Source: Hemibagrus wyckioides (Eukaryota > Chordata > Actinopteri > Siluriformes > Bagridae). From it: a stretch of 64,000 nucleotides of DNA. Below, in pieces: positions 57,521-63,901 of the stretch. Position 1 is the first letter of the stretch. Every line of letters starts with the position of its first letter. Location of the stretch: positions 446,854 through 510,853 of the forward strand of contig NC_080732.1 of NCBI RefSeq assembly GCF_019097595.1. Reading direction: 5' to 3'. The notes beneath the pieces were generated by a model, which made no database searches, was not told where the DNA came from, and saw only the letters and a program-made list of their open reading frames with translations. The position numbers were made by a program, and so were the translations under genes.

Positions 57521-57816
57521 TGTGGGAGAAAAAAAAATAATATACCCAGCTTTGAATTATATACCTAGCTTTAAAAGTAGCTTAAGTAATAATGTACTCA
57601 ATGCTCTAAGCTCTGACTTAGCAATATTCTGCCTAAGAGTAGTGTGTATCTATCAAGAATTATTTAGCCATTGATTAAGTAGTTAACTTTGATTAATAAT
57701 AGCTATAATAATCAGATATAGCCTCATAGTCTTTAAAATAATCATGCAGAATTATTAATGGCAGCATGCTAGCGTAATAACCACACTGGGACTGAAGAAA
57801 CAGAAAAGAGGAGAGA

Positions 57817-57822
57817 TTTATT
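57817..57822 (-). terminator. Antisense polyadenylation signal in LTR
   Basis: AATAAA on the minus strand, 20 nt after the stop codon of the antisense frame. Confidence 0.6.
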
Positions 57823-57842
57823 GGAACATTAGGAGTTACAAC

Positions 57843-58714
57843 TCAGTCAGCCAGCCTATCCAGTGGGATCAGTGGGACCGGAGGGTCAGTTGTAGAAGAC
57901 GGAATCTCGGGATCCTGAGGAGAAGTTGGAGAGTAATCAGTGGGAGAAGTTGGGGGCGAATAGTCAGGAGAAGACTGAGGAATATCATGAACACTGTAAG
58001 GCATAGGCACAAACTCAGGAGAAAGTTGGGGAATGTCAGGGGAATTAGGAGATGAAGAGGAGTCAGAGGAAGAATCATTAGAGGAGATCTCAACAGGGAA
58101 ATCCTCAGTCTGGACGCCTTGAGAGGTGGTGCGTGTCCAATGCCAGTAGAAGGTCTGAGTAGACTGATCACAGGTTGTGGGGTGAAATTGGGTGCTCTGA
58201 TCAAGACAGACGGTATCCCTCACGATATGGTGAGCGAGGTAAGGAGACTCAGGAATAGAGGATTCAGATAGGTGCTCCAGGAAACCAGTAAGTTCAATGG
58301 CCATACAGGATAGCTGATACTGGCGATAGCGTCGCAGAGCACCCCTGGGACTTCTCCGGAAGATAGCGCGGTGGGCTGACTGAGCTAGGAAAAATAATGG
58401 GAAATGAGTAAAGATGAGAGAAGATGAGAGAAGTGCATATTGTGTGACTATGTAGTCAGCAAAAGAGAGCGTGTACTAAGGCAAAAGGAACACAGTGTGG
58501 GAAGTAGGCCAGGTCACTGTGACATGACAGTGATAGGCGGGTAGAGGAGACAATAGCATTGGAATACTAGCAACCAACAGTGATGAAAAGAGAAAAGGAT
58601 ATGAGGCAGCTTAATGGCACAGCTTAGTTTAAAATTAGTAAATAAAACTTAGATCAAGTAAGTAGAGGGAAAAGTCATCATGACATAGAGGAAGAGAGCA
58701 AGGTACTTACACAT
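57843..58714 (-). CDS. Antisense spliced gene inside the retroviral LTR
   Basis: Exon 1 holds the start codon at 58714-58712 (A at -3) and ends at a consensus donor (t|gtaagt, low base 58711). A 326-nt intron ends at ttttcctag, and exon 2 is 58384-57843 with a TGA stop. The product is about 181 residues. The first 30 residues are basic (FRRSPRGALRRYRQ), the middle is hydrophobic/acidic with a Ser/Asp tract (SSNDSSSDSSSSPNSPD), and the end is Pro-rich with DYSPPTSPTDYSPTSPQ, similar to RNA polymerase II CTD heptads. A minus-strand AATAAA lies at 57822-57817, about 20 nt past the stop. I do not recognise the family. Basic plus acidic composition would fit a nuclear regulator, but function is unknown and no other intact viral gene is present in this copy. 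Confidence 0.6.
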
Positions 58715-58817
58715 TGTTGTGGAGGGCAACGTGCGAGGTCAGGATGAGCCGAGGAAGCACCTTTAAGAGGTGATGGTCAAATGAAGTCAATAAGGAAGTG
58801 GCGCCTATAAGTAAGCG

Positions 58818-58838
58818 CCAATTTTTTCTAAAAATTGG
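58818..58838. promoter_or_regulatory. 9-bp stem hairpin in LTR
   Basis: CCAATTTTT and AAAAATTGG separated by three bases. It lies about 100 nt upstream of the antisense start codon and 5 nt after the upstream TATAAGTA. Confidence 0.5.
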
Positions 58839-59046
58839 TGACTTAGCCTAAAAATAAGGGGAACTGGAGAGGAGGAAAATTGACGTCATCGAGGGGAGGA
58901 TGGTATCAATTTAGGGGCGGGCTCGGGACAAATGCGAAAATAATGGGAACTGGGAAACGTATGTAAACTAAGGAAGGAGGGACTAAAGTAGCCATACACT
59001 GAATATAATGGGAAATTGCTGGAAATATTTAAATTAGAGAAAAGGA

Positions 59047-59075
59047 GGCGCCCCGGGGCGCCTGGGGTATAAGTA
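59047..59075 (+). promoter_or_regulatory. LTR core promoter: GC palindrome plus TATA box
   Basis: A perfect 16-bp palindrome ggcgccccggggcgcc (59047-59062) is followed after five bases by TATAAGTA (59068-59075). The spacing to AATAAA (59147) is compact, as in retroviral R regions. Confidence 0.7.
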
Positions 59076-59314
59076 GAGGGGACTTTTTCGGGGTTGGAGA
59101 GACCAGCTGCTCTCTTCAGATATGCATGTTGTTGACTGCATGACTGAATAAAGAAACCTGCTTCTTCTCATCTGTTGACTGAGATCTCTTTTATTTCGGC
59201 TAAGTTTTATAGATTGTGGAGGTCATTGGGAAAGCTAAGGGAAATAGATACAAACAAAAATTCCACCCTGTGATATGTCCACTCGGAGGGGGCTCTGAGT
59301 TCCGACATATTTAT

Positions 59315-59332
59315 TGGTGCCGAAACCCGGGA
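59315..59332 (+). other. Primer-binding site, tRNA-Phe
   Basis: tggtgccgaaacccggga is complementary over 18 nt to the 3' end (including CCA) of eukaryotic tRNA-Phe. It begins seven bases after the LTR terminal CA. Confidence 0.8.
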
Positions 59333-61105: not shown

Positions 61106-63901
61106 TTAGTATCTGCAAACAGGACAAGAATAAAACCTCTGAACTTAATGCTAATGCAAAGAGAAAGAGAGACACAAAACACTGACATCAAAACAGCTAC
61201 ACAGAATGAGGTTCCTCTGAGGGAACCCAGAATGGTTCTATGAAGAGTAGAACCCCACATCAGTGTTTTCCTATCAGAAAAGGTTCCAAGTAGATGAGGA
61301 GATGAAAAGGTTTTGGTGAAGTTCACATTTCTCTGTACCTTTGTCTGGATGGACCGTATGAGTCCAGCATCTGAGTGCTCGCTCGCTCCAGGTTCCAGCT
61401 GCACCTCTGAAGAACTTCTACACACTCAGGCCGAGTCTTCAGACCTAGACGGAACAGCTGCTCTACCTGTCCAATACACACACACACACACAATGAAGTG
61501 AGTGATAATTGATCGTTGTGACCACAGCATCCACACTCCAGGTTACCTTCAGGTACTCAATGGCCTTCTGGACATTCCACCCGTGGCTCTGGAGCGCTGT
61601 CTGACATTCCTCCACCGTCACTCCATGGACCGCCTCCTGTACCTGCAGACATATTTACCGACCAATCAGGTTTCTCATACCTCACACACAGTTGTATGAT
61701 GTGGAAAGCCAGGTGTTCTGGATGTACCTGTTTCACACTGCTGTACGTGTTGAGCACTGTCGAGCTCGTAGAGCTGCTGCTGTTGACCTGCTGCTGCATC
61801 ATGGGTCTGACCGTGGCCATGTTCGTCCGTCGCTCTTTGTTTTGTTCGGAATCTTTCACAGACTTGTCATATCTGTCGAGATATGTCGGTCTGTCAGGAA
61901 GCAGGTAGTACTGAGTGCCGCTGGCCCTGGTGGTGTCGCTCAGGACTGGCATGTTGCAGGGGCTCTTGGCTCGAGTCTGGTCCATACTGGTGGAGGAATT
62001 GGCATTCTGGGAGTTATAGTTGACTCGACTGGGGCTGAGAATGAGCTTTGAAGGGGCAGTGGATGGAGCGTAGGAGTACGATGAAGGGGAGAGGCAGGAA
62101 CCCAGAGAACCGACACAGCACAGAATTGGTCTCTGCTGAGTGGAGATCATGGGACTGGGGGATCGCGAGCTGGGCTGGGACATGGCGTGGTCTCTCGGAG
62201 GGATCTGAGGAGGCTGAGATCTCTCCTCATCATCACCCAAGGAGGCAGAAAGCCTGGCACGTGTCCGTCTGGAAGGCCGTGTCGGAGGGACGGGGATCCT
62301 GGGCGGGATCTGGGGCTTGTCCTCGCAGGATGGCAGGATGATTTGGCGGTGTGGTAAGAGGGGTGATGAAGGCATCGATTGCGCCGTCACTGGTACACGC
62401 AGCTTCGCCATGACCTCCCTCTGTAACTCCTTGAAGATATCGGCCGACTGCGAGGTAGAGCGGTTTTCCACGGCGGGTTTGGACAGAACAAACAGATCGT
62501 CTTCCACTTTGCACTTGGGATCTAAATCTCCTTCAACAGTGGCGTAATTTTGCTGGTCTGGATTGGCGGTCTTTGCTGCGTTTATGGAACTGACCTCCAC
62601 ATCCTCTTGCTCCTCACGCTCTAAAGCCACCTCGTCATATGCAGGGAGAGAAGGCAGCGGCCGGGAGTCCCAGTCCACCACGGGGATCGGGTGGAGAGGG
62701 TTCGGCAAGCTGCGGTATGGGCTCGGTGGAGGACCGTAATCCAGGATGGAGGCTCCAGACAGAGTGGAGCTGGAGGCAGGAGTCTCTGTAATAGGGGAAG
62801 GCGAGGTGGAACTGAAGCTATCGTCTCCGAAGTCGATGAGCGAGACCTCACTGAGGTGATCGGCTGGGTTCGAGTTCTCCCATGGACGAAGGCGTAGCCC
62901 GAGGTATGACGGCGCTCTCAGAGAGAACTTCTTCAGTCCAGTGACAATCAGATCATCGTCTCCATCATCGTCGTCAATCACGGAGTCGTAGAAAGGCTCT
63001 GAAACATGAAAGCAAACCGGAGCTGATCAACAACGATTCAAATAAAACTCAAAAAGTTCCTTAAAGACAGAGATGGCAGATGTTCAGGCAGAAATAACGG
63101 AGAGAATGGAGATGTTCTTACTCTTGAGAAGAATGGCCGGCTGAGGAGGACGAGGTGGAGGTTGCTCTGAGGAACCAGTGTGGAGAAAAGATTATCATAC
63201 AGAAAAGAAAGAAAAAAAAATTTTGGGTTTCAAAATAATAATTTAATTATTTCAAATAGATTAGATATTATATATCTAATTATATAATTATTCAGAAGAA
63301 ATTAATCAACAAATGCTTTATTGAAGTTGGAGCAAAAAACTAAAAAAAAAAGTGATTAACATTAAAGATCATTTTAGATTTTTTATTACAGTATATCATC
63401 AGCCTCCTATAACGGTGTTCTGGACTCTCACTTTTGGCCCGGTTTGGTAGTTTGGTGGGTCTGTCAGCATTCGGATCCATCCCAAGAACATCAGGAGGGT
63501 CCATGGGGTTCCCCAGGTATATACTACATGCAGAAAGTAACAGCCTGGGTATACCTCATAAAGACTTTATTAACATTTAATTTTTAACAGTGTTGAAGAA
63601 TGAAAGGGAAACACAATGCTGCACTGCCCTCTGGTGGTGAGAAACTGAACATTCAGTACAAATATATATAGAAAATAAAGAATAGCTGAAGGTCAGGATT
63701 TCTTACTCATCGATTTTATCCGGAGCGCCCCAGCTGCGGTGAGGGTCGGTGTCTCCGTGGCCCGTGTGGATGAAGCTGTGTTTAAGAGGTCTGCTGATGT
63801 CATGGGCTGAAAGTCCAGCTACAGACGTCACCACGTTCCTGGGGAACTGACCCACCTTCAGAGTTTGACGGTTCTGACCTCGCCACCAGTAGTTCTCTGC
63901 T
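61106..63901 (-). CDS. tnk2: Tyrosine kinase non-receptor 2 (ACK1), C-terminal half (partial)
   Basis: Seven exons in the window: 63901-63707 (SH3 end, [21 protein letters not shown]), 63523-63432 ([10 protein letters not shown]), 63166-63122, 62998-61728 (the long Pro-rich region), 61642-61547 and 61466-61339 (C-terminal UBA region, [15 protein letters not shown]), and 61112-61106 with the stop. Residues match human ACK1 throughout: IHTGHGD, LIDFG (clathrin-box area), [38 protein letters not shown] and [22 protein letters not shown]1 is a Cdc42 effector kinase acting in endocytosis and EGFR turnover; the UBA region binds ubiquitin. The SAM-like and kinase domains lie beyond the right edge. 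The last exon contributes only the final Tyr and the stop. Paralog (tnk2a or tnk2b) is open. Confidence 0.94.

Follow-up and report, generated by a model that had tools for sequence, protein, structure and literature searches.

The question raised by this locus is whether a retroviral LTR can hold a complete, spliced gene of its own on the antisense strand. The window studied here is a stretch of 64,000 nt from Hemibagrus wyckioides, in which the minus strand of an LTR reads ATGT, then a predicted intron GTAAGTACC...TTTTTCCTAG of 326 nt, with a joined frame of 181 codons. An earlier note on this DNA had described the start codon, the 326-nt GT-AG intron, a frame of about 181 codons and an AATAAA 20 nt past the stop, and all these coordinates are exact on re-check. 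The note had also placed the frame antisense to the TATA box, the AATAAA and the primer binding site of the LTR, as we find it (TATAAG at 59068, AATAAA at 59147, primer binding site at 59315), and had called the frame unbroken with the rest of the provirus gone, in agreement with the relatives, which match the window up to 59445 only. The local provirus is thus the LTR plus a leader. As observed in the window, the antisense coding unit is confirmed to be real.

The antisense unit and the LTR that holds it

The features are listed below by their positions in the window.

57521 to 59307, plus strand: LTR of a class I endogenous retrovirus, 1,787 nt, TGTGGGAG...CCGACA; other copies mostly TGTCGGAG...CCGACA
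57817 to 57822, minus strand: predicted antisense poly(A) signal AATAAA, 20 nt past the stop; in 39 of 40 close and 14 of 16 divergent copies
57843 to 58384, minus strand: antisense exon 2, coding part and stop (stop at 57845-57843)
57918 to 57947, minus strand: SPTDYSPTSP, RNA polymerase II CTD-like motif, residues 148-157
58152 to 58163, minus strand: STQT motif, residues 76-79; TQT in 30 of 30 aligned family members
58266 to 58349, minus strand: codons of the predicted helix with leucines at 26, 33 and 40; residues 14-41 (12-39 of the 179-residue query)
58385 to 58710, minus strand: predicted antisense intron, GTAAGT...CCTAG, 326 nt, donor GTAAGTACC, acceptor end TTTTTCCTAG
58711 to 58714, minus strand: coding part ATGT of predicted antisense exon 1, with the start codon
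58881 to 58888, no strand assigned: palindromic CRE-like TGACGTCA between the antisense start codon and the sense TATA box, of putative role
58914 to 58921, plus strand: GC-box-like GGGGCGGG, of putative role
59068 to 59073, plus strand: sense TATA box, TATAAG
59147 to 59152, plus strand: sense AATAAA
59308 to 59445, plus strand: remaining proviral leader, about 138 nt, beyond which relatives do not match
59315 to 59332, plus strand: primer binding site TGGTGCCGAAACCCGGGA, which we take to be a tRNA-Phe site

The ends of the LTR were not located by pattern search and are set instead from the aligned ends of other copies; these are mostly TGTCGG...CCGACA, which gives 57521-59307 for the LTR of the window. 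LTR copies with these common ends carry the frame, so that it belongs to the LTR as the earlier note had supposed, and the insertion of an unrelated sequence into the LTR is rejected. Of 14 copies compared, 10 have the CRE-like site exactly, and from this site the first antisense ATG that the window offers is the start codon of the antisense gene. Of 1000 dinucleotide shuffles of the LTR, 3 attain an open stop-to-stop stretch of 210 codons. Since exon 1 has only 4 coding nt, the exon join alone is weak evidence until other copies are examined, and against a chance frame the conservation in these copies is stronger evidence than the shuffles.

Four internal pieces of the retrovirus were examined, one from each of four different proviruses. 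The Pfam families RVP, RVT_1, RNase_H, rve and MLVIN_C are above their cut-offs in the pieces of two proviruses, and the pol of the family has protease, reverse transcriptase, RNase H and an integrase with an MLV-type C-terminus. The gag gene is named from its position and a sub-threshold zinc knuckle, and env from its position only, with no convincing Pfam match there. The domain set of pol with the MLV-type integrase C-terminus indicates a class I virus rather than a deltaretrovirus, and the Pfam domains as a whole point to a class I (gamma/epsilon-like) endogenous retrovirus as the host virus. Six paired LTRs are spaced by 12.8-16.0 kb from start to start, so that the proviruses measure roughly 15-18 kb, a large size among retroviruses. 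In one provirus piece (L094), about 1.8 kb separates the LTR end from the first long gag-like frame. In another (L095:1468-2106, minus strand), the pol frame has an extra part of about 200 residues between protease and reverse transcriptase, with HCT...HVS motifs; a 2H phosphoesterase domain, read from these motifs by eye, received no support from Pfam or PDB and is rejected. Elsewhere in the window, positions 61557-63026 (minus strand) hold an open frame of 489 residues, probably a host gene, which to our eye recalls TNK2/ACK1.

Copies of the frame in the Hemibagrus wyckioides genome

Two sets of copies, mostly picked by similarity, give an overall view of the frame in this genome. The close set comes from a DNA search with 40 of 282 candidates scored, all of them 96-100% identical to the window and the window itself included. 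The start ATG, the donor GTAAGT and the acceptor AG are present in all 40 (the window and 39 others), with introns of 313-327 nt. The frame has neither indels nor internal stops in 35 of them and is open in 36, counting L038 with its in-frame deletion of 6 nt; the broken ones are L020, L023, L025 and L037. In a protein search with 150 of 394 candidates scored, no stop lies inside the match in 143 of the 150 copies, and the sequences of 16 of the more divergent ones were retrieved as the divergent set. Among them, 15 have an LTR identity of 80-92% to the window, and L091 has 93% over 688 nt, cut by a contig end. The donor is found in all 15 copies that contain its site and the acceptor AG in all 16; the frame is open in 15, with a stop in L090; the exon differs in length from that of the window in six copies, by -3 or -15 nt; the introns of the 15 complete copies have 309-342 nt; and ATA replaces the start ATG in four. 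The copies L085, L086, L088 and L089, on small contigs, have ATA for ATG together with a shared in-frame deletion of 15 nt and an otherwise open frame. The copies are not all independent insertions: L010, L014, L015 and L016 have a right flank in common, and a flank is also common to L085, L086, L088 and L089.

A frame-blind sample of 40 copies, including the window, was drawn with the promoter half of the LTR as the sole query, 40 of its 437 candidates being scored. In this sample 33 copies are also in the protein-search list, as 30 open, 2 with a stop and 1 partial, and the remaining 7 are all broken by frame-shifting or larger deletions or insertions. The frame is thus open in about 30 of 40, judged from the protein-match table, without start or splice sites and not all base by base, and about 10 are broken or partial; such decay of single copies is as expected for a viral gene. 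On the whole, most copies of the close and divergent sets keep the frame and both splice sites, which is the check that the earlier note had proposed for other copies of this LTR.

The conservation differs along the LTR. In 13 copies compared with the window, the identity is 0.933 in exon 2, 0.951 in the antisense 3' UTR, 0.851 in the intron and 0.826 in the U3 beyond the antisense poly(A) signal, and it is 0.905 from the start codon to the CRE-like site, 0.915 from there to the TATA box and 0.917 from the TATA box to the end of U5. With a Tachysurus protein as query, the Hemibagrus genome has 40 matches at E 0.001 or better, some of them new with respect to the protein-search list; they include an 88%-identical copy with ATGT|GTAAGT (L105) and an old broken copy with 69% identity over much of the exon (L106). 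In the latter, exon 2 directly adjoins U5-like sequence, and the intron and the promoter part have no match there. In addition, eleven copies of the frame lie on the same strand within about 190 kb (G000:C7:23733889-23925367), which is perhaps a tandem or segmental duplication containing proviruses.

The substitutions in the frame show purifying selection. Among 30 unique intact close copies, the antisense frame has pS 0.043 and pN 0.013, with a pN/pS of 0.31, and the other five frames have ratios of 0.79, 1.10, 0.83, 0.41 and 1.29; the frame with 0.41 is on the sense strand and has 17 stops in 180 codons. The mean pairwise divergence of these copies is 0.031 in the intron and 0.020 in exon 2. 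Gap columns amount to 36 of 326 in the intron versus 8 of 546 in the exons, and insertion columns relative to the window to 13 in exon 2 versus 2 in the intron. The most divergent copy, L080, compared with the window has dS 0.268, dN 0.068 and dN/dS 0.25, with an intron divergence of 0.322. Overall, dN/dS is 0.25-0.64 over ten pairs with the window and 0.20-0.48 over ten pairs among the divergent copies, so that the value below 1 considered by the earlier note is found in all 20 pairs printed as well as in the close copies. The dS and the intron divergence mostly agree within a factor of two, the largest departure being L093 against the window, with a dS of 0.137 above an intron divergence of 0.056. 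When substitutions are placed at random, as few amino-acid changes as observed occur in 0, 2, 69, 223 and 188 of 2000 trials for L080, L081, L084, L085 and L078, respectively; the deficit of amino-acid changes is strong for L080 and L081, moderate for L084 and weak for L085 and L078. Within proviruses the ratio is nearer to neutral: the six LTR pairs, each attributed to one provirus from its spacing, show in sum 9.5 synonymous and 18.5 nonsynonymous differences, a ratio of about 0.6 per site. Two of the pairs show no difference in exon or intron; three are far more different and may not be genuine pairs. The near-neutral ratio between paired LTRs suits selection during viral replication, the numbers being small.

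Relatives in other catfishes and features of the protein

The relatives in other catfishes are compared as protein sequences only. A profile of Hemibagrus proteins and one Logan protein detects Silurus meridionalis at E 1.5e-8, and the same profile has weaker matches in Tachysurus, at E 3.2e-3 (Tachysurus vachellii) and 0.24. The profile extended by these matches detects 32 proteins at E 10 or better, nine of which are its own members, the weakest being P0032 at E 0.62. Their sources are Hemibagrus, Silurus meridionalis, Silurus asotus, Tachysurus vachellii, Tachysurus fulvidraco, Pangasianodon and Logan contigs, and no relative outside the catfishes is among these named sources. For the N-terminal part without the repetitive tail, profile comparison gives 97.4% between Hemibagrus and Tachysurus (E 1e-11, 67 columns) and 99.1% between Hemibagrus and Silurus (E 1.1e-18, 59 columns), and Silurus and Pangasianodon compare at 98.4% over 88 columns with the tail included. 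An N-terminal domain is common to the Hemibagrus protein and those of three other genera, Silurus, Tachysurus and Pangasianodon. Relatives carry NCBI gene annotations in four catfish genera, and several members in Tachysurus are named RPB1-like.

An alignment was made of 30 sequences (exon 2 of the window, P0001-P0007, P0009-P0023, P0025-P0028 and P0030-P0032), with P0008, P0024 and P0029 left out for their long stretches of unrelated sequence. All 30 members have the leucine at position 26 and also TQT, which P0029, among the three left out, lacks; the CTD-like motif SP.?DY[ST]PT is in 26. The window protein has a net charge of +7 over the 22 residues preceding the invariant leucine, an Arg-rich N-terminus; in the 11 Tachysurus members this charge amounts to only +1 to +4, and two distant members lack it. 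The basic N-terminus and acidic C-terminus described in the earlier note are borne out by a pI of 9.8 for residues 1-60 versus about 4 for the remainder. Pfam has no family for the window protein; it has no bZIP match in the window protein or the 30 aligned members, nor a match to polymerase catalytic domains in the latter. The PDB sequence search with the window protein gave nothing, the scan of viral contigs with P0001 found no relative, and the search of viral structures gave no match at E 0.001 or better. Five Silurus proteins (P0006, P0007, P0013, P0014 and P0017) end in YPNKNA, YPNKHA, YFNKDA or YTNKNA, where the N-K could be the trace of an AATAAA poly(A) signal overlapping the last codons.

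Two PDB entries match the family profile at E 10 or better, and both align with it at YSPTSP-like repeats: 8a8f at E 0.0026, with a chain named RNA end formation protein 2, and 8p7l at E 1.7, which is not significant, with a chain named CDK7. Judged from their letters, the repeats aligned in both appear to be CTD heptads. The AlphaFold model has a mean pLDDT of 59.8 and a single helix, whose ten-residue blocks have 67, 90 and 86; outside the helix the confidence is low or middling, and since this applies to most of the model, no fold is claimed. Alongside the leucines at 26, 33 and 40, the residues at 29 and 36 are mostly hydrophobic, which would suit a short coiled coil. By motif reading, we take TQT for a putative LC8 binding site and presume that the CTD-like tail engages CTD partners.

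Known antisense proteins and competing readings

Antisense retroviral proteins are documented in deltaretroviruses and, with debate, in HIV-1. Like HBZ of HTLV-1 and APH-2 of HTLV-2, the catfish unit is a minus-strand retroviral gene from an LTR, spliced (by prediction) and with a likely transcriptional role (by inference); HBZ has a very short first coding exon, and so does the catfish unit. Unlike these, the catfish protein has no bZIP domain by Pfam, its host is class I and not a deltaretrovirus, and its coding region, intron and poly(A) signal are all inside the LTR: the main coding exon of HBZ and APH is outside the LTR, whereas the 181-codon frame is wholly within 57521-59307, although the NCBI model P0002 adds an exon outside. 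The parallel to HBZ drawn in the earlier note thus stands for the layout but fails for the protein family, and descent from a bZIP protein of the HBZ kind is rejected. The catfish gene resembles HBZ-type antisense genes in layout and is not a member of the HBZ family. HIV-1 ASP lies outside the LTR, unlike the catfish gene. Likewise encoded antisense in a retrovirus, ASP has no known homologues and is predicted to associate with membranes, according to the abstract of PMC12568219. HAP of HIV-1 (U3-R, PMC1654176) is similar in position only, as an antisense gene proposed inside an LTR. Its translation needs frameshifting, a non-AUG start or stop-codon recoding in the passages used of Ludwig 2006 (PMC1654176), and its sequence conservation is called unknown in those of a 2021 review (PMC8622228); the catfish unit differs by one AUG frame, a predicted intron and purifying selection. 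In this review of antisense genes no word begins with fish or epsilon. The tail of the catfish family shares YSPTSP with the C-terminal domain of RPB1, but the catfish proteins are small, mostly of 130-230 residues, with one or a few CTD-like units and no polymerase domain by Pfam. Further papers are cited from excerpts (PMC5237517, PMC8672886, PMC8278194 and PMC8546334). Among the literature matches listed, judged by title or the start of the abstract and with most subscription journals outside the scope, no earlier report of such a gene was recognised.

We hold it to be very probable that a real, selected antisense coding gene lies inside this retroviral LTR. The fuller reading that we prefer is also probable, though less firmly so: a selected antisense frame in the U3 of a class I endogenous retroviral LTR, predicted to be transcribed and spliced, which encodes a small viral protein likely acting in the nucleus on transcription. 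Antisense transcription would start somewhere from about 58715 up to the sense TATA box, with the vicinity of the CRE/GC-box region as the probable site, and one LTR would thus drive both directions; the 326-nt intron would be spliced out, and poly(A) would be added at the LTR's own minus-strand AATAAA. The basic helix with its leucine heptads may dimerise or bind DNA, RNA or a transcription factor, and TQT may bind dynein light chain LC8. The SPTDYSPTSP tail may imitate the polymerase II CTD and engage CTD kinases or readers, an action that could tune viral sense transcription as HBZ-type antisense proteins do. The nuclear transcription modulator suggested in the earlier note gains some support from the conserved CTD-like tail, and that it works through CTD mimicry is put forward tentatively, at somewhat less than an even chance.

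The readings that deny a coding function fare poorly. On one of them, the frame is open by chance and the repeat is too young for its copies to have decayed. This would agree with the 96-100% identity of the 40 scored DNA matches to the window and with the two proviruses having LTR pairs identical over exon and intron; it is contradicted by the frame and splice sites kept at 80-92% LTR identity and by the N-terminal domain recognisable in other genera, and its probability is close to nil. It is highly improbable, too, that the unit is mainly a noncoding RNA or LTR regulatory sequence with an incidental open frame, given that dN/dS is 0.20-0.64 across the 20 pairs printed, that exon indels in divergent copies preserve the frame and that other genera have protein relatives. 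This is so even though the LTR parts beside the gene are also conserved (0.905-0.917 versus 0.933 in exon 2) and, in the part used of PMC10186651, LTRs of endogenous retroviruses are widely bidirectional with antisense RNAs without ORFs being common.

Two other readings accept the protein and change its role or its keeper. As a viral adaptor or RNA-export factor (Rev/Rex-like, or in LC8-dependent trafficking) rather than a transcription modulator, the protein would make use of the +7 charge before the invariant leucine in the window and of the TQT kept by every aligned member; TQT suits LC8, and Rev and Rex are Arg-rich. The charge of only +1 to +4 in 11 Tachysurus members, its absence in two distant ones and the CTD-like motif in 26 of 30 members speak against this role, which we regard as unlikely. 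There is a slim chance that the gene is a captured host gene or exon, or a retroviral gene domesticated by the host, and not maintained by viral replication. The NCBI gene annotations in four genera and the models P0001-P0003 extending past the LTR frame would favour it; copies with examined surroundings sit in LTRs of a multi-copy family, no Pfam domain is found, and no relative outside the catfishes is listed among the named sources.

Under the preferred reading of a selected viral antisense gene, its position entirely inside the LTR means that a provirus has it at either end and a solo LTR retains it complete, so that a solo LTR would be a gene copy as well as a promoter. With some reserve, we lean towards a retroviral regulatory gene of a new class, spliced, antisense and contained whole in catfish class I LTRs, with relatives in at least four genera and a helix-plus-disordered protein with LC8-like and CTD-mimicking motifs, each solo LTR being a free-standing gene copy. 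The virus would then be the first among endogenous retroviruses for which a selected antisense protein is shown; passages of a 2023 review (PMC10186651) report no evidence for antisense proteins from endogenous retroviruses. A viral protein with a conserved CTD-like tail would also allow a test of retroviral transcription control by imitation of the polymerase itself.

The NCBI models P0001, P0002 and P0003, which are automatic, begin with MSQSA, as the predicted join gives, and it is their C-terminal ends that extend past the LTR frame. For P0002, this tail maps to C20:5703918-5704031, 503 nt past the end of the LTR frame (5,703,415), which is outside the LTR and towards the internal region; the genome has 43 matches to it. 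No two-exon join in the ranges tried reproduces this C-terminus. From L084 (L084:1808-2457 = C20:5703386-5704035) the one solution found in the ranges searched needs a second intron, an exon of 5 nt and a GC donor, and the P0002 isoform is therefore treated with caution. A second isoform made only from a 3' LTR is possible, as far as the sequence suggests. In the 14 copies printed, a pyrimidine-rich tract and an AG come right after the antisense AATAAA.
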